NCBI GenBank assembly: GCA_017510405.1 | Contig: JAFWNG010000001.1 | Coordinates: 1 to 64,000, forward strand | Reading direction: 5' to 3' | Length of the DNA stretch: 64,000 bases | DNA from: Solobacterium sp. | GTDB taxonomy: Bacteria; Bacillota_I; Bacilli_A; Erysipelotrichales; Erysipelotrichaceae | In this document: positions 6,241 through 50,745 of the stretch, one piece after another | How positions within the stretch are numbered: the first letter of the stretch is position 1 | Layout of the letters: every line of letters starts with the position of its first letter | Translations under genes and position numbers: made by a program | The notes under the pieces: generated by a model | What the model was told of the DNA's origin: nothing | Database searches by the model: none | Seen by the model: the letters and a program-made list of their open reading frames with translations, nothing else

Positions 6241-6340
6241 TGCCATGTCGCTTCGAGCTTTGAAACGCTTTTCTTTTGGGAGATCTGAGTCTTAAAAAAT
6301 TTTGCTCCTCATCATTTTAAACCTCCAATTTCTAATACAT

Positions 6341-10708: not shown

Positions 10709-10778
10709 ATGTGTCCTCCTTTAATTAAGAACTGCTCATACTAGCAAACCTAAGCACCCTATTATCATAATTTAGTGA

Positions 10779-12620: not shown

Positions 12621-12643
12621 GATAATATACCGTTCCTTTCTAT

Positions 12644-15600
12644 TTACAGGCTCTCCATGATGTTCAACAAACTCTGATAACTGTCAACATCATGGTAAAC
12701 CACATCCTCAGTGGACAACTCATTAAAGAGTTTTTTTGCACACTTAATCTTTGCCTGTTCAATAGGCTTCAGATTAAGGGATTCCATCGTTCCTTTGGTT
12801 TCTGCAATGAAGAAAATGTGCTTAACAGTCCCCTTATTAAATGCTATCGCCCAGTCAGGAGAGTAGTTTCCGACCGGTGTAGGAATTGAGAAGCCCTTTG
12901 GCAGCTTAGCATAAACGCAAACTTCCTCTGCCAAATCCAGATCCTGCGCAAAGACACGTTCACGGCTTTGGCCATCTTTGGCATAGCCGTCCGTAAAAAC
13001 ATAATCCTGAATGCTCTTTTTTGCGCGGTACGCACGGTTGAAGTCTGTATTTTTTTCTGCTGTAAAAATGGCGCTGTCGTATGTACCTTCAGTCCGGTTA
13101 TAAGTAATCTGCTCTACTATCATCGTAGCCTTCTGCTCATTGATCAACCGAATTGCCTTAGTGATAAATTCCTCCGGATTGTCCTGGAACATGGCAAATG
13201 TATATGGCCTGATACCCTGTAATATTCTGGCTACTGTCCGTCGTGTCAATTTTGCACCTTCCGCAATTTTGCCAACAAGGTCGTATTTTACGAGACTTCC
13301 TTCTGCGCGCTGCAAAGTATAGGTCTGACTTTTTTCAGCCACAAATGCTGCGCCGCTCTTTAGTTTTTCAGAGTCCCATTCTCGCCCCTGTTCACCAGTA
13401 GTAACTGTATACTGCAGTTTGGCAACAAACATCTTTTCATCGATATGTGTAATAGCCTTTCGAATCAGTTCCTCGCTATCAAACTCAACCGTATAGGCAT
13501 ATTTGTGGTTGATATAGTTCCACAATGTCTGAAACTCCTTCTTGTAGAAGTTGTCATTCAGTGAATTTTCCTGAATCTTGGTATCATGACCATCTTTGAT
13601 CATGTCATCAAGGGCATGTTCATCAAAAACGCTCTGGATCAGTGCATGTACTCCATCAGTAATATCTTTACAACTTTCAGGCACTAGAGCCAGACTGTCA
13701 TTTGCAAGATCAGCCCGATATTGATCAGTAATATGATCATTTTCATCGATGTAATCATTCTTAATGAGATAACGGTAAATATCACGACCTTGCTTATCTG
13801 TTACGGTTACTTCGTTACCATCAATTATTATGGTCTTCCCAATGAAGTAATCCGGTGTAGCCTTGGAAGGACGTTCATACAGGTCATCCCGGATCCCCTT
13901 CTGAAGATCAGCCACAAAGTCTTTATAACCATCAGAAGCAATAACCGTCAGCTGGTTAATCTGCTGCACTTGCGTTCCCAACGTATCTACATCCATTCGA
14001 TCACCGTTCTGATTTACACATAGACGCAGACCGCGCCCAACCTCTTGGCGCTTTTGTGTTGGAGAACTACCTCCGTGCTTCAGCGTGCAGATTTGGAAAA
14101 CGTTCGGATTATCCCAACCTTCACGAAGTGCTGAGTGAGAGAAGATAAATCGCACTGGATTACCGAAGGACAGCAATCGCTCCTTATCCTTTAAAATCAA
14201 ATCATAGGCTGAAATATCATCGCTTTCATCGCTGCCACGTTTCAAGGAACTATCCACCTTGTGGCCTTTTTTATCGATACTGAAATAACCTGCATGAGTA
14301 TCATGAACCTCAATGCCGCGTAAATACTGCTCATAAGGTGTGTTAAATAATGTAAGATATTCATTCAGAATGTCTGTATATTCCTGCTCAAATATCTCAC
14401 CATATTCGGAGTTGATTTCATTACCGTCTTCATCATATTTACGATACTTAGCTACTTCATCGATAAAAAACAATGATAGTGTTTTGATGCCTTTATCGTA
14501 AAGTTCCTTCTCCTTTTCAAAATGAGAACGTATAGTTTCACGAATCTGCACTCGCCGTAGATCCTTTTCTGATACATCCCCTGTGACCTCGCCAACGTGA
14601 ATAACCTCACCATTAGTAAAAGAAACTGTTTTCCCAATCGGATCAATTTCATTAATATGATATCCTCGGTACTGTTCCATACCCTTAGATAGCGAGTATA
14701 GATCATCGTCCACACCTACGATTCTAGTTTCACGGTTTATGGACTTGTTGTAACTTACCTCAAATTCAATACGTGCCATAGGAGGCTTGTTTGGTGAAAT
14801 AACAATGCCTTCCAAGAAAAGATACTTATCAGTTCCGCGCAGATTCTTTATATCGAAGCCCTTGACCTCAATTCGCTTTACCAGCCGCTTATTATAAGCG
14901 TCCAACGCATCTAAAACATAAACCAGTGTATGATGCTGCTTATGCGTTGCAGAATAATTCAAGCAGAAGAGTGGATTAAACCTCTTGACGCCAGCCTGAG
15001 TAGCAGCTCCACCCATCTTCTGAGGCTCATCCATGATCACAATGGGCCTGTTTGCAGCGATAACATCTATCGGCCGACGGCTTCCGAAATCATCACGCTC
15101 AGAATTGATGATCTTAGAGACACTATTTTTCTTACTCTCGTTAAAGGTTGAATTAAATGCCTGAATATTGATAATCATGACATTGATATCCGCGCTCTGA
15201 CTGAAACTATCAATCTGTGTCAGATTCTTTGAGTCATATACGAAGTAACGGGCCTTTTTTCCGTAGTACTCCATGAAATGCTCTTCCATAGTTTCGAAGC
15301 TCTTCTTAACTCCTTCGCGAATTGCAATGCTCGGCACGACTACGATAAACTTGCTCCATCCATACTGCTTATTCAGTTCAAACATTGTCTTGATATAGAC
15401 GTAGGTTTTACCCGTGCCAGTCTCCATTTCCACATCAAGAGAACACGCTCCGAGTCCACCGCTGGCTATCGTTTCAGCGAGCTTGATATTATTCCTGGTC
15501 TGTATTCGGTGGATATTGTTCAAAAGCTGCCCAAATTCCAACTGTACACGTGCATTAGCAAAACCCATGAACAGCTCTTCATCAGACCTATTCCAGTTAA

Positions 15601-15739
15601 GGATATTCCGCTCTATATTGACATCTCGGCGGTAGGTAAAGTGATCATTAAACGGTTGGCCAGCAAAAACACCTACCACACTGTCAACAGCCTCGGTTTG
15701 ATAAGGCTGTATAGTGAATTTGAATTTCATGTCTGCCAT
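12644..15739 (-). CDS. Type III restriction enzyme Res subunit (helicase-nuclease)
   Basis: A 1031-aa DEAD/DEAH-type superfamily 2 translocase. Walker A METGTGKT around residues 105-112, DEPQ box in IVIMDEPQKMGG (~235), motif VI-like region QKRQEVGRGLRLCVN. The C-terminal 120 residues end with a PD-(D/E)XK-like strand (PDWAIAF ... FFIAETKG) where the endonuclease of Res subunits sits. Res needs Mod to recognise sites, and Mod is encoded two genes upstream. The ATG follows GAGGGAGATATATAACT and lies 2 nt from the stop of the PUA-like gene, so the two are co-translated. Length is in the normal Res range. Confidence 0.9.
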   Translation of the reverse strand: MADMKFKFTIQPYQTEAVDSVVGVFAGQPFNDHFTYRRDVNIERNILNWNRSDEELFMGFANARVQLEFGQLLNNIHRIQTRNNIKLAETIASGGLGACSLDVEMETGTGKTYVYIKTMFELNKQYGWSKFIVVVPSIAIREGVKKSFETMEEHFMEYYGKKARYFVYDSKNLTQIDSFSQSADINVMIINIQAFNSTFNESKKNSVSKIINSERDDFGSRRPIDVIAANRPIVIMDEPQKMGGAATQAGVKRFNPLFCLNYSATHKQHHTLVYVLDALDAYNKRLVKRIEVKGFDIKNLRGTDKYLFLEGIVISPNKPPMARIEFEVSYNKSINRETRIVGVDDDLYSLSKGMEQYRGYHINEIDPIGKTVSFTNGEVIHVGEVTGDVSEKDLRRVQIRETIRSHFEKEKELYDKGIKTLSLFFIDEVAKYRKYDEDGNEINSEYGEIFEQEYTDILNEYLTLFNTPYEQYLRGIEVHDTHAGYFSIDKKGHKVDSSLKRGSDESDDISAYDLILKDKERLLSFGNPVRFIFSHSALREGWDNPNVFQICTLKHGGSSPTQKRQEVGRGLRLCVNQNGDRMDVDTLGTQVQQINQLTVIASDGYKDFVADLQKGIRDDLYERPSKATPDYFIGKTIIIDGNEVTVTDKQGRDIYRYLIKNDYIDENDHITDQYRADLANDSLALVPESCKDITDGVHALIQSVFDEHALDDMIKDGHDTKIQENSLNDNFYKKEFQTLWNYINHKYAYTVEFDSEELIRKAITHIDEKMFVAKLQYTVTTGEQGREWDSEKLKSGAAFVAEKSQTYTLQRAEGSLVKYDLVGKIAEGAKLTRRTVARILQGIRPYTFAMFQDNPEEFITKAIRLINEQKATMIVEQITYNRTEGTYDSAIFTAEKNTDFNRAYRAKKSIQDYVFTDGYAKDGQSRERVFAQDLDLAEEVCVYAKLPKGFSIPTPVGNYSPDWAIAFNKGTVKHIFFIAETKGTMESLNLKPIEQAKIKCAKKLFNELSTEDVVYHDVDSYQSLLNIMESL

Positions 15740-15741
15740 AG

Positions 15742-16221
15742 TTATATATCTCCCTCATGGTTTATCTGCGCCACTGTAAGTATCTCTTCTTCTTGCCTCA
15801 CCTTAAAAACAGTTCTGAATGCACCGAGAGAATACTGAGTTGATTGCGAGAACAAACTTCGAGAGATCCCTTCCTTTAATACTTCTATCCTTCGCACGTG
15901 AGGATACATTCTATCAGCCTCAAATCGATAATCGCCTACAATTCGTGCTAACAGAAATTCTTTGGCATTCAAGTTAGGGACTAATACGAAATCGCCCTTC
16001 TGCATTTCACGACAAAATGAATATAGTTGACCTGCCCAGTTTGAAATAGTGGTCCTGGCTGCAGGATTTTTTTCCTTGATGACAAGCTCCTTGAAATCCT
16101 CTCTGTTTATTAACCCACTCAGATCTAAGCGATATCCATCCCATCCCATGAAAACATCGCTGAATTTCCGAACTTCATCATAATCTTTTCCGTGTTTTCC
16201 CGACCTACAAACCCAAATCAT
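15742..16221 (-). CDS. Small PUA/EVE-like protein within the restriction cassette
   Basis: A 159-aa protein resembling the N-terminal domain found on some Mrr-type and modification-dependent restriction enzymes: an initial WVCRSG strand, an FxGWDGYRLDLSG segment, then QLYSFCREMQKGDFVLVPNL and ARIVGDYRF. This strand pattern is that of PUA/EVE-like folds that bind modified bases. It is placed between mod and res, which is unusual for a two-gene type III system. It may help discriminate modified DNA or regulate Res, but no catalytic residues are visible. Confidence in the fold is moderate. Confidence 0.55.
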   Translation of the reverse strand: MIWVCRSGKHGKDYDEVRKFSDVFMGWDGYRLDLSGLINREDFKELVIKEKNPAARTTISNWAGQLYSFCREMQKGDFVLVPNLNAKEFLLARIVGDYRFEADRMYPHVRRIEVLKEGISRSLFSQSTQYSLGAFRTVFKVRQEEEILTVAQINHEGDI

Positions 16222-16268
16222 ATTTCATCCCTTTCATTTCAACTCCGGGGGAGTAATAGTTTTTCATC

Positions 16269-18263
16269 TTACAACACTTTCCTCTGAGTCTTAGGGCTAT
16301 ATGTTTCGAAAATCTGCTCAAAGTTGGTGGCAACACTGTCACTAGCCATGCCACTATCACGGAATACTGCATAGAAAGGATGCTTCTGCGCGATAGCCTT
16401 TACAGTTTCCTCATTCACATCCTTATCAAAGCAGGCAATAAGATACCCATCTGCCACGGAGAAGACCTTTTTACCAGCAATAGTGATTTCTTCAATCTTT
16501 GAAGAAAGCATAACACCCAGATCAAGCATAACTTGGAAAAGCAGATCTTCTGGTGTTCTGTCCTTCTTGATATTTTCTGCAAAGAGTTCCATCTGTCCTT
16601 GGTTGTAGTCCGCAGGTCGATAGTAGATATCTTCCATGTTGGAAGAATCCACGCGAAAGACCCGGAAGCCAATATCCAGATCTGATGTGATTAGCGGAGC
16701 ATCATCCCGAATTTTCTTTCCAGCACGACGGATCCGTTCCTCACCAACATCACATATAGTTTTATAGCCGGCCTTAAATGTTGCACTACCTTCTGCGGCT
16801 TTTTCAGGAAGCTGAACCATGATGAACTTCCGATGTCCACCATCTTTCGCATTAAGCCACATTGTAGCGTGTGCCGTCGTAGCGGATCCCGAGAAAAAAT
16901 CCATTATGATACTGTCATTAGTGTTTCTGTAAGAGGCCAGAAGCTTGATGAGCAATCTCGTTGGTTTCGGATAATCCATCATTTTTTGCACACCGAAAAG
17001 AAGACGGAGTTCTTCATCTGCATCTTCATTAGAGCCCCAACCAGAACTTGAAAGATTGTTGATATCAACATCGTCTTTGTGGGAGACATCAGAATCATCA
17101 CCAATCCTCGGGAGTAAGTCTTTCATCGTCTTGTTCCGAACATCCGTAACAATTCTACGAAGATAAAGATCACGTGTGATGTATAGTTCACCTTTTTCTG
17201 CATACTCCGCCATAGCTGGTTGGGAATATCTCCAATTTCCTTCTAGCACCAACGTTTCTGCCAAACGCCCATTTTTTATGACTAAGTCGGAATGTAAAAC
17301 AATGCTCATAGTGGTATCACTTATCTCCGATCCCTTTGCCATAAAAAAGTTCTTTTCTTTATACTTGCTCTCTATCCCTGCAGGAATAGTCCGCAGTTCT
17401 CTCTTGTTAACAGCATTAATACAAGGATAAGTCTCGGCACTGTCGTTGATTTCACCAATTAGCCCTTCAAACATGTCGCTGTTTCTGCAGTAGACTAGAA
17501 CATATTCTTTTATATTGGTAACAGCTTTCGAAAGGAAAGAACCTTTCTTTTTCTTTTCCCAAACAAGTTGGGCAACAAAATTCTGCTTACCAAACACCTC
17601 ATCAGCGATTTTCTTGAGGTTCTCCTGCTCATTATCATCAATGGATATGAAAATCACGCCATCATCCGATAGAAGGTCCTTTGCAAAACGGAGGCGGGGA
17701 TAGAGCATATTTAGCCAATCCGTATGGAAACGACCATTACTCTCCAGGTTCTGCACAAGGCGATTACCATCGTCATCAAACTGACCGCTCTCAGAAAGAT
17801 AGTCATCTTTTCCCTGCGCAAAATCGTCTTCATAAATGAAATCAGTCCCTGTATTATAAGGAGGATCAATGTAAATGACTTTGATTTTTCCAAGATATGT
17901 TTCCTGAAGTAATTTCAGTGCATCAAGATTATCGCCCTCAATATAGATATTCTCAGTATCAATACTACCCGGTGTACCGTCCCGCCCAACAGATTTCTCA
18001 CGAACAAGACGTAACGTCTTGGTGATTGGCTGGTTAGCAAGAATGACAGACTTTCTCTTATCCGGCCATGTAAATTGATACCGTTCCTGTGGTCCTTCAA
18101 CAATAGTCGAAGAAATTTCCTGGCGCAATACATCCACGTCAATGGCACGGATAACCTCACCATTTGCATCAATCGTTTCAGTAACGGCGTTCGGGAATAA
18201 TTCGGCTAGCTTTTTATAGTTTTCTTCAGCCAAATCAGGCGTATGCATCTTAAGGTTTTCCAT
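16269..18263 (-). CDS. Type III DNA methyltransferase Mod (adenine-specific)
   Basis: A 664-aa beta-class N6-adenine methyltransferase. Motif IV DPPY is at residues 133-136 (YIDPPYNTGTDFIYEDDF) and motif I (FSGSATTAHA) comes later, near residue 460, the order DPPY then FxGxx that defines this class. The intervening ~300 residues are the target-recognition region. It methylates the recognition site on host DNA and is needed for Res to find sites. It overlaps the end of the DUF4391 gene by 14 nt. Ordered after helicase and DUF4391 and before the PUA-like and Res genes. Confidence 0.93.
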   Translation of the reverse strand: MENLKMHTPDLAEENYKKLAELFPNAVTETIDANGEVIRAIDVDVLRQEISSTIVEGPQERYQFTWPDKRKSVILANQPITKTLRLVREKSVGRDGTPGSIDTENIYIEGDNLDALKLLQETYLGKIKVIYIDPPYNTGTDFIYEDDFAQGKDDYLSESGQFDDDGNRLVQNLESNGRFHTDWLNMLYPRLRFAKDLLSDDGVIFISIDDNEQENLKKIADEVFGKQNFVAQLVWEKKKKGSFLSKAVTNIKEYVLVYCRNSDMFEGLIGEINDSAETYPCINAVNKRELRTIPAGIESKYKEKNFFMAKGSEISDTTMSIVLHSDLVIKNGRLAETLVLEGNWRYSQPAMAEYAEKGELYITRDLYLRRIVTDVRNKTMKDLLPRIGDDSDVSHKDDVDINNLSSSGWGSNEDADEELRLLFGVQKMMDYPKPTRLLIKLLASYRNTNDSIIMDFFSGSATTAHATMWLNAKDGGHRKFIMVQLPEKAAEGSATFKAGYKTICDVGEERIRRAGKKIRDDAPLITSDLDIGFRVFRVDSSNMEDIYYRPADYNQGQMELFAENIKKDRTPEDLLFQVMLDLGVMLSSKIEEITIAGKKVFSVADGYLIACFDKDVNEETVKAIAQKHPFYAVFRDSGMASDSVATNFEQIFETYSPKTQRKVL

Positions 18264-18885
18264 GCTTCAATTCCTCCAATTTCTGTTTATAGGATTGCAC
18301 TTTAGTGTACAGTTCAAAGCGCTTCTTTGGTTGCTGTTCTTTCCAGGCGGCCGCCTCTGTTTTTTCTATCTGCTTCTCCAGTTTTATAATTTTTTCCTGT
18401 AGAGCGAGTCGCTGGTCGATAGTAAGATTATCGGCAGGATTCGCTCTTTCTTCATATAGGGCAATCTGTTCTATTAAACTGTTCCATATTTCTTCCAATG
18501 AGAACCCATTTGCTTCCAGTTTCAGTTCATCCTTTGACATCCATTGCGTTCGATACAGTTTGCTATGATAAAGAGCCAATTGCCGTTGCTCTTCATATAT
18601 CAGCAGGAATACAAGTTGATGTGGGTTCTGTCTGGCAATTGCTTCAACCACCTTGCCATCGAATTCCTGCTTCTTCAGTGATATTGAAAGTAATAGGATT
18701 TCTTTAATCTCAGTGTCCGCTGCGAGATTCAAGTTTTCTTTTGTCAGACTATTCTCCACATAGATCCTATCCACATCAGAGACAAATTTATCTTTCAATG
18801 CAGTGGTCAGAGAAAGGCGTTTATAAAACGCTTCTTTGGGCAACCGTCTGTGGACAACTGTTGCCTCAGGAAAATTAATCATCAT
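18250..18885 (-). CDS. DUF4391 protein of the restriction cassette
   Basis: A 211-aa protein matching the DUF4391 type: basic N-terminus (FPEATVVHRRLPKEAFYKRL), central strands (VFLLIYEEQRQLALYHSKLYRTQW) and a C-terminal coiled coil (LEKQIEKTEAAAWKEQQPKK). DUF4391 genes recur next to SNF2/PLD helicases and type III Mod genes; their biochemical role is not established to my knowledge. The ATG at 18885 overlaps the helicase stop (ATGA), favouring it over a TTG 18 nt upstream. Tight coupling to helicase and Mod suggests a structural subunit of the complex. Confidence 0.75.
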   Translation of the reverse strand: MMINFPEATVVHRRLPKEAFYKRLSLTTALKDKFVSDVDRIYVENSLTKENLNLAADTEIKEILLLSISLKKQEFDGKVVEAIARQNPHQLVFLLIYEEQRQLALYHSKLYRTQWMSKDELKLEANGFSLEEIWNSLIEQIALYEERANPADNLTIDQRLALQEKIIKLEKQIEKTEAAAWKEQQPKKRFELYTKVQSYKQKLEELKHGKP

Positions 18886-21800
18886 ATCACCACCATAAAG
18901 CAAATCAATTCAAAGTCATCCAGCCCGGAAAACCCTCCAGAGAGGAATGTTGTCTGCCCTCCTCCAAAGAAACTGTCAATGTCGCTTTCATCTTTCGCAT
19001 CGATAATCGACATGATAGAATCCTCCAAAAGCCGGGAAACTTTTTCCATGTTTCTGCCATTATTTGTTTCTTTATTAAAACGATCACATAGCACCTTGTC
19101 TGGCGTCGCTTTTCCTCTGGCAAGGTGTCTCATCACATCCAGCGTATCCTTTGGTTGCAGATGATTAGCAATCACTTCACCATCTTGGCCCACATAAGCA
19201 AGGTAAAAAGGATGCAACCGATTCTGGTTCTCTATATTTACATGCTTGTTGACATTCTTTAAAACAAAGATCACGCCCGGCTTCTCACCTTTCACAACGG
19301 CATGAATGCCGAACGGCGTGTGGTCAATATCGCCATGCGTTTTCATATAAGCCAACAAATCCATCCGAAACTCATTCAAGCCTAAATCCATAATAGATAC
19401 GCCGCTAGTCATATCCTCCAGATCAACGACTTCTTCTTGAAGACGTTTAAGCTGGCTCCGTCTATATTCCAGATCTCCCTTTTCCTCCTGATTGATCAGA
19501 TCATCATCACCTGTAGAGGTCATTACCGATATACGCATTCTTGTTTCAACTCTGGCCTTCAGGTTGATATACTCATCTAAGTCAAGATCTGGCCAGAAGT
19601 TCACAAGCTGTATTACAGCATTCCGACTACCAATACGATCAATTCGACCGAAGCGTTGGATAATACGTACTGGGTTCCAATGAATATCATAGTTCACGCA
19701 GAAATCGCAATCCTGCAGGTTTTGTCCTTCAGAAATACAGTCGGTGGCAATCAATATATCAATGTCCGCCTTATCACTTGGATATAGTACATCTCTGTCT
19801 TTTGATTTTGGTGAAAAGCAAGAAAGCACATGGTTCATTTCTGGTTTGAACCGTGGAATTGTTGTTTTTCCATCCACAGAACCAGTGACTAGCGCTGTAT
19901 TCAGCCCCAATTCTTCCTTTGCCATCTTGCTAACGTACTCATAGATGTATTCCGCTGTATCCGCAAATGCCGTGAAGATAAGCATTTTTTTGTTTCCTGG
20001 ATTAATGGGTGCGGCCACTTTCTCCCTAATCACACGCAACAATTCATTAAGCTTAAAATCATATTCAGGAGTGATATCCTCTACCATCAGGATAAGAAGC
20101 TGAAGGTTATCTAAATCTTCATCAATATCCCGCTTCCATGAGATATAGTCCATATCCCGGAGATCGATGCGAACCTTTTTGCCAACGCTGAAGAAATCGG
20201 TGTTCTGATCATCGTCATCAAAATCCACAGCTGCGCTGGACAAATCTCTCATCTCGTCAAGATTGCCGTTCCCTTTTCCGTCCATGAACGCCTGAATGAT
20301 TTGTGACGTTTCATTCAAATAATCATAGATCCTACGTACCGTCAGTAAGAAAGAGTGAACCGAGCTTTCCATACGCTTTAATAAGTTGATACTCATCAAA
20401 CGCTGAATACCTATTTCACGCCCTTTACGGAAGTTTTCTGTTTCTTTCTCCTCTAGATACTTACTAATTTTACTAGGCAGGATATAAGCTGTCGGAGTAT
20501 ATATCGTAAGCTGAAGCTTTGAAAGTAATTCAAACACTTCTTTGTAATTTATTGCATTTTCACGAGTCGTCAGCTTCGGGCGAAGAGAGATTGGCTTGTT
20601 CCTTTCAGGAAAATTTCCAATGTCTGCAACATCATAATATGTCTGAATATGCTTACGAGAGCGAGCTATGGTTACGCTATCCAGCACTTCAAAGAAATCA
20701 AAATCCAACTGTGAGAGCAAAGTTGCAGTAGTTCGCTGTTCTTCCGGAAGTTTGCACCATGCGTTATAAACCTTTTGTGCTTGACGGAATATCGTGTCAA
20801 TGTCAGACTTTGTGTTCAGTTTCTCATCAAAATCGGATGGGTCGCCTTCATAAGCAAGCGCCAGCTGATTGCGAAGATCATAAAACCTGTTGTTCACCGG
20901 TGTTGCAGAGAGCATCAAAACCTTCGTTTTTACACCGGGTTTAATCACACGATTCATCAGCCGCATATAACGGTTTTCTTTTTCTCCTCCACGGCTGTTT
21001 GTACCATTCCCATTTCGAAAGTTATGACTTTCGTCAATAACGACAAGGTCGTAGTTTCCCCAGTTGATCCGATCAATAGGCAAACCAATTACAGTATTAC
21101 CGCTGTCGCGTGAAAGATCGGTGTGATAAAGAATATCGTAGCGTAAACGATCTGCTGCCAGAGGATTGTTGATTAGGTTTCCGCGATACGTCATCCAGTT
21201 TTCCGAAAGCTTCTTCGGGCAGAGAACAAGTACATTCTTGTTTCGACCTTCGTAGTACTTAATAACAGCCAACGCTGTGAATGTCTTACCCAGCCCAACA
21301 CTATCAGCCAGAATACAGCCGTTATACTGTTCCAGTTTGTTTATGATAGCGAGTGCTGCATCTTTCTGGAAATTGAACAGCTTTTTCCATATAACACTGT
21401 CCTTAAACCCAGTTGCTTCATTTGGGAGAACATCCTCAGAGATATCTTCTAAAAACTCATTGAAGATGTTATAAAGCGTCATAAAATACACAAGTTCTGG
21501 TGCGTTTTCCTGATAAACAGTAGAGATCATTTCAATGACTTCTTCAGTTACATCAGCAAGCTTTTCCTCATCAGACCAGATCGTGTTAAACATGCGCAAA
21601 AACTCACTGCTTGCAGGATTTTCAAGCCGGGTGACCATATTAGTAAGATTGTTTCCACGTTCACACCCCAAGTCAACCGTAGTGAACGTATTCATAGGCA
21701 TATAGGTATAAGTTTCACCTGCTCCATCTACGAGGAGAAAATTATTCATGCCATCGCGAGTAGTGTTAGACTTAAAGCAAGCTTTTTTACGCATCCACTC

Positions 21801-22115
21801 CGCGCATTCTTTCGCAACAGCTTTCTGCTTTAGCTCGTTGCGAAGTCGTACTTCAAATTCAGTACCATATAGACTCTTTTCCCGCTTAAGCCGTGGAATA
21901 TAAAACTCACGCCGTTCTTTTTGCGTTTTTTCTGCAATAAAAGTTGGCGACGTGAAAATAAACCGAAGTTCATCACAGGACTCCAGCTGATCTTTAAGCG
22001 TCTGATACGCATATATAGAGAAGCATGCCGCAGCAATAGAAACACGACTTCCCACCTGTATTGTTTTTTCCAAGTCATCTCTAACGACTTTGGTGGTGTT
22101 ATTAAATATCTCCAT
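18882..22115 (-). CDS. SNF2-type helicase with N-terminal PLD-like nuclease domain
   Basis: A 1077-aa protein. Residues 1-150 resemble a phospholipase-D-type nuclease module (FNNTTKVVRDDLEKTI ... CFSIYAYQTLKD). The motor starts near 245: Walker A ADSVGLGKT around 270-278, DESH box in LVVIDESHNFRNG, and motifs V/VI in IATDCISEGQNLQDC and QRFGRIDRIGS. Such helicases occur in DISARM-like and extended type III systems. No DUF1998 gene is present, so this is not DISARM. It is the first enzyme gene of the operon, 26 nt after the Xre gene, and overlaps DUF4391 by ATGA. Confidence 0.88.
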   Translation of the reverse strand: MEIFNNTTKVVRDDLEKTIQVGSRVSIAAACFSIYAYQTLKDQLESCDELRFIFTSPTFIAEKTQKERREFYIPRLKREKSLYGTEFEVRLRNELKQKAVAKECAEWMRKKACFKSNTTRDGMNNFLLVDGAGETYTYMPMNTFTTVDLGCERGNNLTNMVTRLENPASSEFLRMFNTIWSDEEKLADVTEEVIEMISTVYQENAPELVYFMTLYNIFNEFLEDISEDVLPNEATGFKDSVIWKKLFNFQKDAALAIINKLEQYNGCILADSVGLGKTFTALAVIKYYEGRNKNVLVLCPKKLSENWMTYRGNLINNPLAADRLRYDILYHTDLSRDSGNTVIGLPIDRINWGNYDLVVIDESHNFRNGNGTNSRGGEKENRYMRLMNRVIKPGVKTKVLMLSATPVNNRFYDLRNQLALAYEGDPSDFDEKLNTKSDIDTIFRQAQKVYNAWCKLPEEQRTTATLLSQLDFDFFEVLDSVTIARSRKHIQTYYDVADIGNFPERNKPISLRPKLTTRENAINYKEVFELLSKLQLTIYTPTAYILPSKISKYLEEKETENFRKGREIGIQRLMSINLLKRMESSVHSFLLTVRRIYDYLNETSQIIQAFMDGKGNGNLDEMRDLSSAAVDFDDDDQNTDFFSVGKKVRIDLRDMDYISWKRDIDEDLDNLQLLILMVEDITPEYDFKLNELLRVIREKVAAPINPGNKKMLIFTAFADTAEYIYEYVSKMAKEELGLNTALVTGSVDGKTTIPRFKPEMNHVLSCFSPKSKDRDVLYPSDKADIDILIATDCISEGQNLQDCDFCVNYDIHWNPVRIIQRFGRIDRIGSRNAVIQLVNFWPDLDLDEYINLKARVETRMRISVMTSTGDDDLINQEEKGDLEYRRSQLKRLQEEVVDLEDMTSGVSIMDLGLNEFRMDLLAYMKTHGDIDHTPFGIHAVVKGEKPGVIFVLKNVNKHVNIENQNRLHPFYLAYVGQDGEVIANHLQPKDTLDVMRHLARGKATPDKVLCDRFNKETNNGRNMEKVSRLLEDSIMSIIDAKDESDIDSFFGGGQTTFLSGGFSGLDDFELICFMVVI

Positions 22116-22141
22116 GAAGCGTTAACCCTCTCCAACATTTA

Positions 22142-22387
22142 TCATTGTACTGATCTGGCTGTACGTTTTTTGGTACTGTCAACCGGATCAGGATAAATCT
22201 CCATAATGTCCTCAATATTGCAATCCATGTTAAGGCAGATCTTCTCAAGCACATCCACCATGACATTGCCACCGTTCTGAAGTTTATTCAAAGTGCCCTG
22301 GCTGATACCAGTGAGTTCCTTGAAGTCTTTCTTCTTCATGTCGCGATCAATCAATAATTTGAACAACTTCTTGTAAGAAACTGCCAT
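22142..22387 (-). CDS. Small Xre regulator heading the restriction operon
   Basis: An 81-aa YozG-like Cro/C1 helix-turn-helix protein (DRDMKKKDFKELTGISQGTL, then LNKLQNGGNVMVDVLEKICLNMDCNIEDI). It lies directly ahead of the helicase gene with a 26-nt gap and shares its promoter, so it acts as an operon-internal controller like the C proteins of restriction systems, which delay Res until methylation is established. An inverted repeat CATTAT/ATAATG (22401-22406, 22415-22420) just upstream is a plausible operator. Confidence 0.85.
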   Translation of the reverse strand: MAVSYKKLFKLLIDRDMKKKDFKELTGISQGTLNKLQNGGNVMVDVLEKICLNMDCNIEDIMEIYPDPVDSTKKRTARSVQ

Positions 22388-23204: not shown

Positions 23205-24143
23205 TTACGCTTCTATAGGCAGATCCAGCTGGTCATTTTCTTTTTCTGCTTCTCCCTGGTCTGTTTCATTCGCAGCATTTTCCTGAGCTTCCGCAGCAAT
23301 CTTTTTGATCCTGCTTGTACTGGATTTATGTTTTCTTGCCTGCTCTGTCATGTACGAATAGAGTTTTTCCAGACTCAGATTGTTCTTGCCACCTCTGGTT
23401 CCCTTCGCGTAGAACGTCACCAGCGCCTCTGCATAACCCATCGAGCCGGAGCGGCGTTCCTTTGCATTCCTCATGATTTCTTTCAGAGAAACAGATCCCA
23501 GCTTCTCTTTGAAAGTCTCGTCGCTCAATTCATCTCCATACACATGAATCAGAATGGCGATGCTTTTAAGAATATTCGAGCTGAGAGAATGCGGTGCTCC
23601 TTCCCAGGTAGCAATGCAAAGCCGGAGTGTGTGATCCAGATTACCGTAACCAAACTTTTTCATTATGTCCTGGATTGTAGCAACTGCACAGATTCCTCCA
23701 GGTGCATCTCCCGGTGTGATGGATAAACCATATGATTCTACAAGCTCCTTGATAATAAGCTGTTCCTGATTACCTGCCTCAATATTTGCGGTGAAAATAT
23801 CATACGGCGTAAGCGGGCGGACATATTTGCTTTGGTTCGCAAAGATATCGGCTTCATGCGTATACTCCAGATCGTCATAGATCATGCACCAGACCGGTGT
23901 ATCTCTCGAACCGGAAACCATCGCAACAATTTCAATGGTATGCTGTCCGTTGAAAACATAATTCATTCCATTTCTGCGGCTTACCTTCACCGGGTTGATC
24001 TGATTCACATCAAAATTTTCTGCAGCATGGAGAACCTGCTTTTCGGATATTGATCGCTGATATTCCTGATTGGAAACAAGGTTTCTGATCGGGATCAGTT
24101 CAAAATGTACCTGTGGAATGAACTGGTTGAATCTTTCGTCCAT
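23205..24143 (-). CDS. ParB/DUF6551-like protein, last gene of recombinase operon
   Basis: A 312-aa protein with a ParB/sulfiredoxin-type N-domain: IPIRNLVSNQEYQRSISEKQV, shortened, and the motif NGQHTIE, the counterpart of the GERR/DGQHR nucleotide pocket. The rest is helical and includes a basic patch (RNAKERRSGSMGY) and an acidic C-terminal tail. Standard ParB helix-turn-helix motifs are not obvious. The ATG at 24143 overlaps the previous stop (TAATG) and has a GGAGGAG site; a longer reading frame upstream runs inside the previous gene. There is no ParA beside it, so a role in recombination or regulation is as likely as partition. Confidence 0.65.
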   Translation of the reverse strand: MDERFNQFIPQVHFELIPIRNLVSNQEYQRSISEKQVLHAAENFDVNQINPVKVSRRNGMNYVFNGQHTIEIVAMVSGSRDTPVWCMIYDDLEYTHEADIFANQSKYVRPLTPYDIFTANIEAGNQEQLIIKELVESYGLSITPGDAPGGICAVATIQDIMKKFGYGNLDHTLRLCIATWEGAPHSLSSNILKSIAILIHVYGDELSDETFKEKLGSVSLKEIMRNAKERRSGSMGYAEALVTFYAKGTRGGKNNLSLEKLYSYMTEQARKHKSSTSRIKKIAAEAQENAANETDQGEAEKENDQLDLPIEA

Positions 24144-25069
24144 TACGACTCCTCCGTAATTTGTAAAATGGCGGCAATGATCTCTTCCTCCAACTCTCCA
24201 AGTTGTTCCTGGAGCCGTGCCTTTGCCTCCGGTGAGATCTTGCTGAAGTCTGCCTTTGAGCAACTTCGTTTTATTGAAGTGATCCAGGACGGGATTGTGA
24301 GATACAATCCAGAGATTTCAGAGTCCGGATCATATACAGGAGTTTGCTTGATAGCAATGTTCGGCTGTGCCGAAACTGATGATTTCCGGCTGCCGGTTTT
24401 TGTAATCACTTTGTTTTTCAACATCATTTTTTGTAATTCATTGTTCGTAATATGCTCTACCTTTCCTTTGTTCACCATGGAATCCAGCAACGATAACACT
24501 TCATCCTGGACGGTTGTCATCAGCTGAATTGTTTTATGAGAAACCTTCAGTTTCCCTGAGAGAATATATTCAGCAAGCTGCCTGTCCCTGTCATAAATCG
24601 AATCCAGGTTCTCTGCGTAGATTCCGTACTTGTAGACCGTCCCTGAAGAGAGATGATAGATTTTGCTGACCTCTTCGGCTGTGCTGTAGACAAACGTTGA
24701 TCTTTTGGTAAAAGACGGCGGCTGTTCATGGAAGTATTTCTGCCTTTGCGCAAGGTAATGTTTTCCGATTAGATATACACCGGTTTCCTGTGTAACTGAC
24801 GCGCTCTTCAGATGTTCATAGCACAGCCAGGTGATGGCATCTTCTTTGCAGGAGAAGACTTTCTCATTGATCGGCATTTCTATTTTCAGATTCAGACAGA
24901 TCCGATACCGCTTATACCCATTGAGAATGATTCCGTCCCAGATATCGATTGGATCGAGGCATCCATGAGCTTTAATACTTTCTTCCAGATGATCCAGATA
25001 ATCCTGGGAGAACAGAGGAGACAATCTTTCAAAATCTGTATCAGTCTTTAGTGATTCTGGCATTTTCAT
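24143..25069 (-). CDS. ParB-like protein with ParB N-domain
   Basis: A 308-aa protein. The N-terminal 90 residues match a ParB nuclease/NTP-binding domain (LSPLFSQDYLDHLEESIKAHG, shortened, then LDPIDIWDGIILNGYKRYRI, with GYKRY in place of GERRY). Residues ~110-200 carry a helix-turn-helix (TAEEVSKIYHLSSGTVYKYG). It is fourth in the recombinase operon, overlaps the preceding gene by 29 nt, and is coupled to the following ParB-like gene by TAATG. It may bind element DNA near the recombination or transfer site. It is distinct from the ParB at 44930. Confidence 0.7.
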   Translation of the reverse strand: MKMPESLKTDTDFERLSPLFSQDYLDHLEESIKAHGCLDPIDIWDGIILNGYKRYRICLNLKIEMPINEKVFSCKEDAITWLCYEHLKSASVTQETGVYLIGKHYLAQRQKYFHEQPPSFTKRSTFVYSTAEEVSKIYHLSSGTVYKYGIYAENLDSIYDRDRQLAEYILSGKLKVSHKTIQLMTTVQDEVLSLLDSMVNKGKVEHITNNELQKMMLKNKVITKTGSRKSSVSAQPNIAIKQTPVYDPDSEISGLYLTIPSWITSIKRSCSKADFSKISPEAKARLQEQLGELEEEIIAAILQITEES

Positions 25070-25448
25070 AGCTTGTCTCCGTTCTCTTTATTTCTTCAAC
25101 TTCTGTCAATGGAAACTGGGCGATCCATTCTTTGACATTCATCCGACCGTAGATCCGATATGACTTTCCGTTCTTCAGCTCAGGATTGACCTGCTGTAAT
25201 GAGCGGAAGAGATATGCGCTTTGAAGAACTGCACCGTCTTTGTTGATACCTTTGACTTTATGTACACGATCACTTCCTCCAGTACTGCATCTTACTGCAA
25301 GTATCTTTGTTTCTGGATTTACCAGCAGTTCTACATATTCCGGATCTCCAAGAAGAAGCAAAGTCTGCTTATGAATACGAATTCTGTGCCATTTGTAATC
25401 TATGGTGATTATGGGAGTTGCATCAGCTTTTACATTATTGCTCATCAT
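25041..25448 (-). CDS. Standalone copy of the recombinase C-terminal domain (small)
   Basis: A 135-aa protein beginning at the ATG-ATG pair behind GAGGG. Residues ~15-100 align with the C-terminal domain of the serine recombinase and with the preceding protein; the shared core here is LVNPETKILAVR at 42-53, after VEL. It lacks the resolvase catalytic domain. It overlaps the upstream gene by 14 nt and the downstream ParB-like gene by 29 nt, so the three are tightly coupled. Probable partner or modulator of the recombinase, for example in directionality; this is inference. Confidence 0.6.
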   Translation of the reverse strand: MMSNNVKADATPIITIDYKWHRIRIHKQTLLLLGDPEYVELLVNPETKILAVRCSTGGSDRVHKVKGINKDGAVLQSAYLFRSLQQVNPELKNGKSYRIYGRMNVKEWIAQFPLTEVEEIKRTETSYENARITKD

Positions 25449-26112
25449 TAGATCCCTCACTTTCTGAAGCAGGCTGATTATCTTTTTTCTGAATTCCAAA
25501 CACGGTGTACTTATTGAAAAGGCTCACCTGAACGGTGTTTTCATGCTGCTCAGCTGGTACACCAAATTGATTCTTCCATTCCTCCGGATAGAACGGCGTT
25601 CTTGATTTCTTGATCTTGCCGTCTTCGATTTTGATATGTGTGAAGATCTCCGGCTCAGTAAGATCAAAGACAAATAGAAGATCTCCGCCAGACCGGATCA
25701 GCTTCCCGAGAAGCTTGTACCGGTAACTCATATCCCATCCCATCAGAGAAAACACTTTGGCAAAGAATACACGGCAGGTCACCTGTTTCGGAGTTCTTTT
25801 CCCGTTGGCAGAGCACCAGCGAAAAGAATCTTTTGTTTCTTCAGCGCAAGGACGGATTGCCAGCTTCTTTGCTTCCGGATTAACAAGGATCTGCATGTAA
25901 TCAAAATCCGGAACCTTCTTCAGACAAGTTCTGTTGACAGATACTTTGTTTCCGCTGAATGTGACAGACGGTTCGTTAATATGGGCAAAGAATTCACCCC
26001 TGACCACCTGATATCCCTTATAGCTGAAGGAATCATCTTCAATCACGTCTAGCAAATTCCCTTGGTCAGCATAATTACCGGTGGTTGTGTTACTTGTTAT
26101 TTCGTTTTCCAT
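25435..26112 (-). CDS. Standalone copy of the recombinase C-terminal domain (large)
   Basis: A 225-aa protein. Residues ~27-160 align along their length with residues ~392-526 of the serine recombinase: GYQVVRGEFF versus GFEIARSQFF, LVNPEAKKLAIRP versus LVHPEKKLIAIRP, and MGWDMSYRYKLLGKLI versus FGWQNRWKYQIIGTYL. No serine-recombinase catalytic motif is present. The start follows GGAGGACTGAC and sits 1 nt from the recombinase stop. It is a paralogue of an LSR domain encoded as a separate subunit, an arrangement I do not know from characterised recombinases. Confidence 0.65.
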   Translation of the reverse strand: MENEITSNTTTGNYADQGNLLDVIEDDSFSYKGYQVVRGEFFAHINEPSVTFSGNKVSVNRTCLKKVPDFDYMQILVNPEAKKLAIRPCAEETKDSFRWCSANGKRTPKQVTCRVFFAKVFSLMGWDMSYRYKLLGKLIRSGGDLLFVFDLTEPEIFTHIKIEDGKIKKSRTPFYPEEWKNQFGVPAEQHENTVQVSLFNKYTVFGIQKKDNQPASESEGSNDEQ

Positions 26113-26113
26113 G

Positions 26114-27958
26114 TCAGTCCTCCGATCTCAGTTTTTCCAGAATCTGATTGATATCAGCCTTTATTTGTGATGGATCCTGGACGGAAATTTCCGGATCCAT
26201 ATATGAAATTCCTTCTGCTCCGGCGTTCCAATCGTCAGAAGAAGTATCTACGGCATCTGAAGATTCCTGCGCATACACATCGTCTCCAAATGATTCTGAC
26301 CAGGCATCCGGATATGCGGGAATTGTTTTCCCTCTCCTTGACAGAGGTGTAATATCTTTCTTCTGGCTGGTTACAACATCCGGCGGAACCAGAACAACCG
26401 CCTCACTGGTATCAAAGACAATGATTGAATCGGTACCGTTCTGAAGATATGTTCCGATGATCTGATATTTCCATCGGTTCTGCCATCCGAATAATTCATA
26501 TAGCGCCGGAAGGAAAGCTGTACCAGTGACAATACGGCCGACTAGACCGCCTTCATGATGTTTAGCCCATTTGATTCTGTTTCTGCTTGCCGGTTGAGAT
26601 GGCCTGATTGCGATCAGTTTCTTCTCCGGATGAACCAGAATCTCTATTTCCATCTTGTCGGTGAACTTGCGGACAAGGGAAGTTGAAAAAATAATGCTCT
26701 TGGGCGTGAATGTGATGATCAGCTGGCCCTTGGTGCTGAAAAACTGAGACCTGGCAATCTCAAAACCACGCAGATCAAAATCGCCCTCCTGCTTCTCGAT
26801 CTGGATCGTATCTCCCGGAATGACTACCGGTTCTCCAAGGACCTTGGCATATGCCATGTGGTAATCCGCAGCTTTGAACGCTGCCCAGTGAATGTTGACG
26901 ACAACATAGCCATTCAAAATACCGTCTGATATCACCTGCAGTTCCGGGAGGATTCCGCGTCCGCCATATTTAGATCCTCGAATCATTTTCTGGACAGCCA
27001 TAAAGACATCATGGCTGATGATCGGCTCATGATGATCCCGCTGATAAACTTTTGCACGTTCGCCATTGTTTTTCTTGGATTTGTGATCGAGATAATTCGG
27101 AGTCCATGTTTTATGAGCCAGTACGTCTCCGCAGTGCCGTTCATTCTGAAGGATCTGCATTATGGAAGATGTACTCCAGGTGGTATTTCCTTTTTTGGTG
27201 GCGCTCCCGCATTCTGTCAGGGTATCTGCAATTTCCTTCGGTGAGTATCCGAAAAGGTACATATAGAAAATCAGACGTACAATCTCTGCCTCATCTTCGT
27301 TGATTACCAGGTTTCCGTCCTCATCTTTGTCGTAGCCAAGCAGAACCGGTGTAAGGAAAATGCCACGGTTAAAGCGCATCTGAATCGATGCGTTCATGAT
27401 CTCGCTTTTGGTGTGGGATTCTTCCTGGGCAAGAGTTGCAATAAACGAAAGACTCATTTCGCTGTTGGCATTCAATGTATGTATATTTTCAGTTTCAAAG
27501 AATACTTCCACCGGAGGCTGCATAGCCTTTAATTCCCGAACATATCCGATGCAGTCGATAATGTTTCTTGCAAAACGGGAAACGCTTTTGGTAACGATCA
27601 GATCGATCTTTCCTGCTTTGCAGTCAGCGATCATTCTTATGAAAGCGTCACGATGCATAAGGGAAGTCCCCGAAATACCTTCATCCGCATATATGTCAAC
27701 AAGTTCCCAATTAGGGTGCTGATTCACAAAATCCGTGTAATGATTTCTCTGCAGCTCATAGGAACTGGTCTGGCGCGGATCATCGGTTGATACACGGGCA
27801 TAAACTGCAACCCGCTTATGAACGACCGATGTGAAAAAGTCTTCCTGGGGAATGGCGGGGATGATCTCAAGCATGCTTTCGTCAACGCCTTTATATCGTT
27901 CCCGGATCTTCTTTTTCTGATCAGCAACGCTTTCGTTCTTTTCTTTTTCGTCGCTCAT
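26114..27958 (-). CDS. Large serine recombinase (integrase) with atypical C-terminus
   Basis: A 614-aa recombinase. The resolvase domain starts at ~48: VAVYARVST with catalytic Ser57, GISGTSLMHRDAF, and VSRFARN with its arginines. The Recombinase domain follows (~200-330: GYSPKEIADTLTECG, ILQNERHCGD). The CxxC zinc ribbon and long coiled coil usual for large serine integrases are missing. Instead residues ~392-526 form the domain shared with the next two proteins. The likely ATG (27958) has AAAGGA 13 nt upstream; a GTG further up lies in a hairpin. It would catalyse integration into, and excision from, a dinucleotide-core att site, presumably the macrodomain gene junction at 50.4 kb, although the gene is 22 kb from that end. 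Confidence 0.85.
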   Translation of the reverse strand: MSDEKEKNESVADQKKKIRERYKGVDESMLEIIPAIPQEDFFTSVVHKRVAVYARVSTDDPRQTSSYELQRNHYTDFVNQHPNWELVDIYADEGISGTSLMHRDAFIRMIADCKAGKIDLIVTKSVSRFARNIIDCIGYVRELKAMQPPVEVFFETENIHTLNANSEMSLSFIATLAQEESHTKSEIMNASIQMRFNRGIFLTPVLLGYDKDEDGNLVINEDEAEIVRLIFYMYLFGYSPKEIADTLTECGSATKKGNTTWSTSSIMQILQNERHCGDVLAHKTWTPNYLDHKSKKNNGERAKVYQRDHHEPIISHDVFMAVQKMIRGSKYGGRGILPELQVISDGILNGYVVVNIHWAAFKAADYHMAYAKVLGEPVVIPGDTIQIEKQEGDFDLRGFEIARSQFFSTKGQLIITFTPKSIIFSTSLVRKFTDKMEIEILVHPEKKLIAIRPSQPASRNRIKWAKHHEGGLVGRIVTGTAFLPALYELFGWQNRWKYQIIGTYLQNGTDSIIVFDTSEAVVLVPPDVVTSQKKDITPLSRRGKTIPAYPDAWSESFGDDVYAQESSDAVDTSSDDWNAGAEGISYMDPEISVQDPSQIKADINQILEKLRSED

Positions 27959-28083: not shown

Positions 28084-28129
28084 CAAAAAAAGAGAGACCA
28101 AAGCCACCGGTTAATGGCTCTGATCCCTC
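28084..28129 (-). terminator. Terminator of the relaxase gene
   Basis: Minus-strand 14-bp stem with G-U pairs (28129-28116 with 28105-28092), 10-nt loop, followed by seven U. The 5' arm overlaps the last codons and stop of the relaxase gene. Confidence 0.8.
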
Positions 28130-29505
28130 TGGTTCTTTCTGCTACGTTTCTTCGTCTGTTCCTGATCTTCTTCCAGGATGATTTCGGCATTTTTCAATGC
28201 TATCTGTAGTTCCTTGGCCTTATTCCTTGCCATGCGGTATTCCGCATATACTTTTTTCTTTTCAGCTATGACCTGGCCATACTCTACATTCAAATCCTTC
28301 ACTTTCGGAATTTTCTTATCCGGCAACTGATCAAAAGCTGCTTTTGCCTGCTCATGCAATTGAATCTCTTCAGCATGTTCCTCAAGATAAAGATGATCAT
28401 ATCCGGTGCGCCTGTATTCTTCATAGATGCCCTTCGTCTTTGAATAATTGAATATATGATTCTTCAGCTGGCGAATCTCTTCCAGTCTTGCATCTTTTGC
28501 GTGAATGGTATCAAACAATCCATCTGCTCCTCTGGATGCTTCTAAAGCTAGTCTTCGGAGATCTTTCATATCGTGAATATTGTTTTCCTGCAGGAAGAGT
28601 AGAACCTTTGCCATCTGTTTGACGTTGAATTTCTCCGCCCATCGCTGGTATCCGGCACCTTTCCCTTCAAGGATCTTGTCCTGCATGTTGATGAGAAGAT
28701 CCATCCGCTCATCTTTGCTTCTGAACCGACGTTTGCTGCTCTTCCCGGAAATGAGCTGATCAAGTTCAGACTGAGAAAAACCTTCACCGAGAGAGTCCAG
28801 ACGAATGAAGCGTTTCTGACCATGTCCCTTTACGGCAATATGCTTGCCACGCTTGACCTGATAGCCGGACTGTTCCAAAGATGACAGAAAGGCTTCGAGC
28901 GACTGTGGTTTCTTTTGGAGAGCATCGTTAATCTGACTGCGAAGAGCATCCCTGAAGGAATGCCTTTGCGGGTAGATCGTTCGTTTTTTCCTTTTACCGA
29001 CAGGTAGCTTTTGAATAATAGATTTCCCATGTTCAAAACAGATAATGTCACTCAGCGTCTGCAGCGCCAGACCGCAGAAAAAGAAATTCTTGAACTTTCT
29101 GGTGCAGTCCAGGGCAACCGAGTTGAAGATGATGTGATTATGAATGTGTGTTCGATCTGTATGTGTGCAGACAATAAAGGCATGCTCACCCCGAGTAAAT
29201 CGCATCGCCGTTTCATAGCCAATCTTATTCGCTTCTTCCGGTGTAATCTCTCCCGGTTTGAAGGACTGGCGGATCTGATAAGCCAGGATATCCCCTTTGT
29301 AAACTCTGCCGGTAATGCGGAGATACTCCTCTTTGGAGAGTGCAAATTCCTCCGCTGCTGTTTCAGCGCTGCAGGCATAGGATGAAATGTATTCACCTTC
29401 TTCCGTCTTATCCGGATTCTCCGAGTAATTAATTCGCTCCTTAAGACTCTGAACAGGCGATTTTCCCTTTGCCTGATGCATGGATATTAGTTTCGTTGCT
29501 GCCAT
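28111..29505 (-). CDS. Relaxase / mobilisation nuclease (MobP type)
   Basis: A 464-aa relaxase that nicks oriT and pilots the transferred strand. The metal-binding triad is in HTDRTHIHNH (residues 115-124), the motif III of MOBP relaxases. The N-terminus (KLISMHQAKGKSPVQSLKERINY) is the usual start and supplies the catalytic Tyr region. The C-terminal half is a coiled coil (QLKNHIFNYSKTKGIYEEYRRTGY, shortened; a known relaxase/T4CP interaction tail). The ATG at 29505 follows GGGAGGTACG and is chosen over an ATG-like codon 12 nt upstream that overlaps the ribosome site. It is second in an operon with a small membrane protein and is driven by promoter copy B. Confidence 0.92.
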   Translation of the reverse strand: MAATKLISMHQAKGKSPVQSLKERINYSENPDKTEEGEYISSYACSAETAAEEFALSKEEYLRITGRVYKGDILAYQIRQSFKPGEITPEEANKIGYETAMRFTRGEHAFIVCTHTDRTHIHNHIIFNSVALDCTRKFKNFFFCGLALQTLSDIICFEHGKSIIQKLPVGKRKKRTIYPQRHSFRDALRSQINDALQKKPQSLEAFLSSLEQSGYQVKRGKHIAVKGHGQKRFIRLDSLGEGFSQSELDQLISGKSSKRRFRSKDERMDLLINMQDKILEGKGAGYQRWAEKFNVKQMAKVLLFLQENNIHDMKDLRRLALEASRGADGLFDTIHAKDARLEEIRQLKNHIFNYSKTKGIYEEYRRTGYDHLYLEEHAEEIQLHEQAKAAFDQLPDKKIPKVKDLNVEYGQVIAEKKKVYAEYRMARNKAKELQIALKNAEIILEEDQEQTKKRSRKNQRDQSH

Positions 29506-29518
29506 CGTACCTCCCATA

Positions 29519-50376: not shown

Positions 50377-50745
50377 ATTGTCGATACACGTATGCATCGG
50401 TACAAAGCAGCCAAGCATCTGCGAATTTGCCGCATTGACGATCGCGTCTGCCGCAAGCCGCGTGATATCCCCCTGCCATACAGAGATGCCGGCATTTCCC
50501 GCCGTGCGCAGTACCGGGATATCCTCCATTGTTACGATGCCGTTCTGAATACTGTGTTCCTTCAGATACGCATCCTGTACTTTCAGTACATGCGAGGACA
50601 TGGGACGGGGTATGCGTATGTTCATGAGGGAACGCAGTACCTGCCGCTGCTCCGCCGGTTTCTCAGGGACCTGCATGTCTTTATAGTCAGCAGAGTCTTT
50701 GATAAATTCTTCTGTCAGATATCTGAGTCGTTCTTTCTGTTCCAT
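50362..50745 (-). pseudogene. Chromosomal macrodomain gene, truncated by the element
   Basis: Starts at ATG 50745 behind AAGGAGGCAGCT, and encodes the N-terminal helical region (LRYLTEEFIKDSADYKDM, then LRSLMNIRIPRPM) and the start of a macrodomain (ISVWQGDITRLAADAIVNAAN, shortened; SQMLGCFVPMHTCIDN). It stops four codons after the junction, losing two thirds of the macrodomain including the catalytic loop. The rest of the gene is not found in the window. It lies just downstream of the atp operon terminator on the same strand, and its promoter now reads into the element. Confidence 0.85.
50370..50382. other. Right integration junction (att site) within a macrodomain gene
   Basis: Reading minus strand, the macrodomain frame is conserved through HTCIDN (last codon 50379-50377) and then becomes PILN and stop at 50362, unlike any macrodomain. 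The break is therefore close to 50376. No long direct repeat is seen, as expected for a serine recombinase with a dinucleotide core. Confidence 0.65.

Follow-up and report, generated by a model that had tools for sequence, protein, structure and literature searches.

A conserved five-gene cassette of Solobacterium couples a large serine recombinase lacking a zinc ribbon to two free copies of its predicted C-terminal barrel domain

We examined a 64,000-nucleotide stretch of a Solobacterium sp. genome (contig JAFWNG010000001.1, positions 1 to 64,000; hereafter the window) and found a cassette of five genes whose first member, a large serine recombinase (LSR), lacks the zinc ribbon and carries in its C-terminal part a predicted barrel domain that recurs in the two proteins encoded next, ORF2 and ORF3. 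Two ParB-like genes, the second belonging to the DUF6551 family, complete the cassette, which lies within an integrative and conjugative element (ICE). We see an even chance that the five genes form an accessory, heteromeric serine-recombination module of ICEs, Candidatus Heliusvirales phages and defence-rich loci, acting away from ICE ends. An earlier sequence-only reading had singled out these genes, and its claims were checked by the positions of open reading frames (ORFs), profile searches, blastp, hhalign, AlphaFold models and a domain tree.

The recombinase retains its catalytic part and lacks the zinc ribbon

In known large serine integrases, DNA binding and the control of directionality reside within one polypeptide, and the zinc-ribbon/coiled-coil C-terminus of the canonical enzymes binds the DNA arms and gates synapsis. 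When the LSR was compared with Pfam, it matched PF00239 (E=2.7e-26) and the Recombinase domain PF07508 (E=5.2e-23, above the cut-off), and no match to the zinc ribbon PF13408 was returned; the combination of zinc ribbon and coiled coil typical of large serine integrases was not found. Residues R67, S69, R140 and R143 were invariant across 71 aligned sequences, indicating that the catalytic residues are intact. The start of the protein was best set at the ATG at 27958, whose methionine is kept in at least 90% of 71 homologues. The alignment further revealed that only the first strand of the CxxC ribbon of canonical relatives, without its cysteines, is present in the window LSR; a cysteine-free stretch at the same position was seen in phi1207.3 Orf2 and in a Heliusvirales recombinase. 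The AlphaFold model (predicted local distance difference test score, pLDDT, 77.6) contained no coiled-coil arm, and its residues 52-344 matched known LSRs with Z of 12-17. Among NCBIfam families the best similarity was to CcrB/CcrC over the N-terminal ~290 residues (E=4.7e-39), with a score of 134.5 bits that did not reach the CcrB equivalog cut-off of 900 bits. The first reading had described an enzyme with normal catalytic and Recombinase domains and with neither a CxxC ribbon nor a long coiled coil, and the Pfam matches, alignment and model confirmed this description. In some phages a further protein of ~200-250 amino acids (aa), weakly similar to the catalytic profile of the LSR, was encoded upstream of the cassette (L079:3-599, L081:3273-4022 and similar).

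A single predicted barrel domain is shared by three proteins

ORF2 resembled the LSR tail in blastp (E~1e-22), and hhalign connected ORF2 with LSR (99.9%, E=8e-34), ORF3 with ORF2 (97.6%, E=3e-12) and ORF3 with LSR (95.6%, E=1e-8). As judged by these comparisons, the LSR tail (~120 aa), ORF2 and ORF3 carry one homologous domain, and their resemblance is far above chance. No Pfam or NCBIfam model covered this domain, and ORF2 and ORF3 gave nothing significant in PHROGs either. The AlphaFold model of ORF3 (mean pLDDT 90, predicted template modelling score 0.81) consisted of two beta-alpha-beta-beta halves, predicting a double barrel, and residues 426-536 of the LSR model showed the same order of secondary-structure elements; the comparison was based on profiles and on this order. 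In the domain tree the barrels of LSR, ORF2 and ORF3 formed three clades with 95-99% support, and those of LSR and ORF2 were sisters (support 98/95), indicating that the duplications are older than the spread of the module. The recurrence of the LSR C-terminal domain in two downstream genes was thus upheld by blastp, hhalign, the order of elements in the predicted structures and the tree.

A Foldseek search of ORF3 against the Protein Data Bank (PDB) gave no match at E <= 0.001, which is not proof of a new fold. Among predicted viral structures, phage proteins of uncharacterised function matched ORF3 with probability 1.00, showing that the barrel fold occurs beyond the cassette. The best TM-score was 0.65, for gp105 of Lactococcus phage KSY1, and the best matches shared 12-20% identity with ORF3.

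The five genes are almost always found together

The cassette comprises five consecutive minus-strand genes with spacings or overlaps of only a few bases (Table 1), and the overlaps suggest translational coupling. The sequence-only reading had stated that two ParB-like proteins follow the barrel genes; this proved clear for the second (DUF6551, E=2.7e-33) and marginal for the first (ParB_N, E=0.11). No ParA gene was present in the five-gene module, so that the ParB and ParA partnership of a ParABS operon was not found there.

Searches seeded with ORF2 yielded 80 loci each from viruses and genomes. The five genes and their order were kept in nearly all of these loci, the order being identical in ~77 of the 80 genomic ones. 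Because an ORF2 seed is biased toward ORF2 carriers, a second search was seeded by the LSR tail alone. At the 54 viral loci with enough sequence, the ParB-like gene was found in 54, DUF6551 in 53 and ORF3 in 53; ORF2 was scored in 51, and at least two of the misses carry an ORF2 that was dropped by a strict overlap limit. These results demonstrated that an LSR with a fused barrel is practically always accompanied by ORF2 and ORF3 and that the five-gene linkage is near-obligate. The carriers included Candidatus (Ca.) Heliusvirales phages, ICEs (the window and L122) and chromosomal loci. The question raised with the first reading, whether the domain always neighbours serine recombinases, was answered in part: the LSR-fused barrel is accompanied by ORF2 and ORF3 near-invariably, but barrels without an LSR were found at two loci, L254 and L255, the latter a lone barrel gene adjoining a type I restriction system. 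A weak barrel match in a small protein at a housekeeping locus, by SPFH- and NfeD-like genes (L256:5639-6037), may mean that a chromosomal family of this domain exists as well.

The cassette lies mid-element in an ICE with its own integrase

The carrier has the relaxase, VirB4, coupling protein and integrase at a disrupted attachment (att) gene that characterise an ICE. Its right end interrupts a host macrodomain gene after ...MLGCFVPMHTCIDN, at ~50377. The remaining half of this gene was found on contig C18, directly beside the gene for a recombinase of 639 aa that has a CxxC ribbon and a long tail rich in heptads. The window contig begins with 141 bases that are identical to the final 141 of C18, as in an assembly overlap, and the two contigs therefore join, giving an ICE of ~54 kb summed over both. 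In Solobacterium RGIG2523 the entire ICE was contained in a single contig, with the N-terminal macrodomain half at 16.3 kb, the cassette at ~41-46 kb and the canonical integrase at ~72.6-74.5 kb, abutting the C-terminal half at 74.4 kb. In this layout the cassette occupies the middle of the element and the junction adjoins the canonical zinc-ribbon and coiled-coil enzyme, which is likely the integrase of the ICE. The cassette LSR, which does not adjoin the att site of its own element, was considered for this role and rejected. In five other related ICEs (relaxases 37-53% identical), other genes followed the relaxase and the cassette was absent in the stretch read. Collectively, the junction, the mid-element position and these five ICEs speak against the proposal in the sequence-only reading that a split integrase switches the ICE between integration and excision. 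The ICE also has ParA and ParB genes separate from the cassette.

An intact macrodomain gene lies within the ICE (window 48343-49146, minus strand), ~1.2 kb inward from the end that interrupts the host gene. The RGIG2523 ICE contains the same internal gene (94% identical) and a SirTM-like gene near its other end (L226:5319-6326); these ICE-borne genes possibly compensate for the disrupted host gene. A protein with several tandem helix-turn-helix (HTH) repeats of the xenobiotic response element (XRE) type is encoded at 49088-50479 (minus strand), adjoining the ICE end.

Table 1. Positions in the window of the cassette genes and of the features around them
Feature	Position	Strand	Description
Large serine recombinase (LSR)	26114..27958	-	614 aa; Resolvase and Recombinase domains, cysteine-free zinc-ribbon remnant, C-terminal barrel
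Barrel domain within LSR	26375..26785	-	residues ~404-540, numbering from GTG 27994
ORF2	25435..26112	-	225 aa; barrel and C-terminal extension; nearest to LSR tail; no Pfam or PHROG match
ORF3	25041..25448	-	~135 aa; barrel only; start overlaps ORF2 end; AlphaFold pLDDT 90
ParB-like protein 1	24143..25069	-	308 aa; marginal ParB_N similarity; overlaps ORF3
DUF6551 protein (ParB-CTPase-fold family; PMC12704722)	23205..24143	-	ATG at 24143 overlaps stop of ParB-like 1
Small HTH (Cro/C1-type) regulator 3' of cassette	22142..22387	-	last gene in common with RGIG2523 ICE before exchanged cargo
Defence cargo adjoining cassette	6312..22135	-	HKD-SNF2, DUF4391, type III restriction-modification, GmrSD-like, Avs2-like; BREX instead in RGIG2523 ICE
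ICE relaxase (MobA/VirD2-like)	28111..29517	-	directly upstream of cassette
Host macrodomain (ADP-ribose hydrolase) gene, N-terminal half	50377..50745	-	one ICE end

Defence genes and placement of the cassette

When the window ICE was compared with the otherwise collinear RGIG2523 ICE (L225/L226), the complete defence block was found to be swapped exactly between gene ends, with no more than 8 bp shared at the cargo junctions. Defence neighbours elsewhere included BREX genes in L183, a reverse-transcriptase system in L178, a Schlafen helicase in L164 and a type III-like restriction enzyme with a methylase near the cassette in L190; the association is descriptive. Between related loci, similarity typically started ~0.5-0.6 kb before LSR, just past an XRE gene, and ended 0-100 bp past DUF6551, with unrelated flanks. 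At chromosomal loci the cassette was located among ordinary genes (L171), next to ftsH-uvrC-hprK (L178), and between dxr and rseP together with BREX genes, with no other recombinase within the locus (L183).

A conserved crossover motif was sought upstream of the module, and only AT-rich words and, on visual inspection, hairpins followed by T-runs were obtained. No empty site for L171 was found in 40 relatives, and the repeated matches proved to be a dispersed short repeat of genome G298. This repeat (TTATTATGCACAGGTCCGCAT..., L171:12828-12864 and G298 contigs) occurs at ~10 places in G298, once right after the cassette. Perfect inverted repeats of ~31 bp (L183:410-441 and L183:~13515-13546) flank the dxr-rseP insertion; their inverted orientation led us to reject them as the footprint of a serine integrase. 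Neither flanking repeats beyond chance nor, in the 40 relatives, an empty site spoke for self-mobility of the cassette.

Comparison with known recombination systems

A close parallel was found in phi1207.3 (Tn1207.3) of Streptococcus pyogenes, where a zinc-less serine recombinase, Orf2, is likewise followed by a separate barrel protein, Orf3. The catalytic part of Orf2 is 42% identical to that of the cassette LSR, but Orf2 has 370 aa and ends after the Recombinase domain, there is a single barrel gene, and ParB-like genes are lacking. Orf3, a 138-aa barrel annotated as hypothetical, showed homology with ORF2 (E=5e-15), ORF3 (E=1e-10) and the LSR tail (E=7e-12). In phi1207.3 and Heliusvirales alike, the recombinase chain ends at the ribbon remnant and a separate barrel gene of ~140 aa comes next. 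These architectures form a series that leads from a recombinase with one barrel gene to a fused barrel with two barrel genes, phi1207.3 and other phages having the module in its simplest split form. In both, the zinc-less recombinase and barrel gene coexist with a zinc-ribbon recombinase pair (see also PMC4260502). A Heliusvirales-type prophage of Ruminococcus torques ATCC 27756 (L126:3473-8092) apparently lies inside a comEC-like gene, a target shared with Streptococcus phi1207.3.

Streptococcal ICEs use triplets of serine integrases, and 10 of 42 serine integrases there have no PF13408 (PMC4701971), a lack that the cassette LSR shares. These elements carry several recombinases each and very small direct repeats; the triplets are three tandem recombinases at the element end, whereas the cassette has one recombinase and two catalytically empty barrels in mid-element. 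No catalytic domain was found by Pfam in ORF2 or ORF3, so that three tandem serine recombinases are not present. The integrases of phiC31, SPbeta, Bxb1 and the Listeria type share catalytic and Recombinase domains with LSR, in which the barrel replaces the zinc ribbon and coiled coil, and CcrB/CcrC of the staphylococcal cassette chromosome SCCmec is similar to LSR in the N-terminal part and differs in C-terminus and gene neighbourhood. When the openly accessible literature was searched for serine integrases that lack the zinc ribbon, or that consist of several subunits including accessory ones, no description of the module was found. The cassette architecture is real, strongly conserved and apparently undescribed.

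Discussion

We propose that LSR would be the catalytic subunit of the five-gene accessory module, in which an MraZ/AbrB-like beta-barrel may have taken the place of the zinc-ribbon/coiled-coil C-terminus. ORF2 and ORF3 would be free barrel copies that arose by duplication long ago; most likely they serve a heteromeric recombination complex as additional DNA-binding subunits. We infer the formation of this complex and its DNA binding, the latter from the resemblance of the barrels to MraZ. The barrels of LSR, ORF2 and ORF3 would probably touch the DNA half-sites and shape the synapse instead of a ribbon and coiled coil. Because phage DUF6551 fusions bind CTP or ATP (PMC12704722), the ParB-like and DUF6551 proteins are probably nucleotide-dependent DNA-binding switches that may load or regulate the complex. 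The DNA site acted on would lie elsewhere than the ends of the carrier ICE. A wider version, which we regard as tentative and unlikely, is that the triplicated MraZ-like barrel and the ParB-type switches exchange or mobilise defence cargo in Clostridia and their relatives, within ICEs, phages and chromosomal defence islands, as a new class of cargo recombination.

Several findings weigh against the proposal of an accessory recombination module. MraZ, a double AbrB-like barrel, is the nearest solved fold to ORF3 and matches it weakly (Z 5.2, 87 residues, root-mean-square deviation 3.3, 12% identity); a Z as low as this may reflect a common arrangement only, and the uncharacterised phage proteins are better fold matches than MraZ. 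The correlated divergence of LSR and ORF2 (r=0.74), which favours the module, in part reflects the shared ancestry of a single operon. No recombination site was found: direct repeats flanking the module had a mean longest match of 9.0 bp, against 8.8 for mismatched pairs. An ORF2-ORF3 pair without LSR at L254:6275-7268, adjoining XRE/ImmA, Schlafen-helicase and KAP NTPase genes, indicates that the barrels may also function by themselves. This pair, the barrel by type I restriction genes at L255 and the weak match in the L256 housekeeping locus would fit the idea that ORF2 and ORF3 work independently, as DNA-binding regulators or in a defence-related role, and merely share an operon with the recombinase. 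We hold this to be distinctly unlikely, given that the barrel-fused LSR practically never occurs without them and that the fused and the free ORF2 barrels are sister clades.

Other explanations, whose likelihoods overlap in part with one another and with that of the accessory module, concern what the recombinase acts on. The module could drive a small integrative unit of its own, composed of the XRE gene, the five genes and often defence genes and nested in ICEs, phages or chromosomes in the manner of SCC. The sharp limits of similarity at the XRE gene and past DUF6551, the chromosomal placements L171, L178 and L183 (the last without another recombinase) and the swapped cargo speak for it; but the flanking repeats do not exceed chance, the L171 empty site was not found, the cargo junctions have at most 8 bp in common, the upstream XRE gene is missing in the window, and module exchange by homologous recombination would yield an identical picture. 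We consider such a unit possible while leaning against it. It is rather improbable that the cassette completes a serine-integrase triplet as its third member and helps canonical zinc-ribbon integrases in, for example, excision. The zinc-ribbon pairs beside the zinc-less recombinase and barrel in phi1207.3 and Ca. Heliusvirales (PMC4260502), the streptococcal triplets with their ribbon-less members (PMC4701971) and the canonical integrase of the window ICE are consistent with such help, but that integrase is of the single-integrase type and ~25-30 kb from the cassette. Moreover, one of ten cassette genomes (G304, L190) yielded no PF13408 recombinase, a count to be read with the possible incompleteness of these genomes, and six (G298, G299, G301, G303, G305 and G306), from assemblies that may likewise be incomplete, had none on the contig of the cassette. 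A helper role is thus not general and may apply in some phages. A maintenance function, in which a resolvase and ParB-like proteins resolve multimers or partition circular phage or ICE forms, would agree with the ParB-like gene at all 54 LSR-seeded loci and with nucleotide binding by DUF6551 ParB-fold proteins (PMC12704722). The module has no ParA, however, and the ICE has its own ParA/ParB genes; LSR, with its Recombinase domain, is built like a large integrase and not like a small resolvase, and some copies of the module lie at chromosomal loci where no further mobile genes were seen, which makes this explanation very unlikely.

If the accessory-module proposal is correct, a DNA-binding domain spread over three subunits beside ParB-fold proteins would represent another way of controlling serine recombination. 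The module would also explain unannotated genes of abundant gut phages (Ca. Heliusvirales) and of the macrolide-resistance prophage phi1207.3, and its recurrent position by exchanged defence genes offers a testable link to the turnover of defence cargo.

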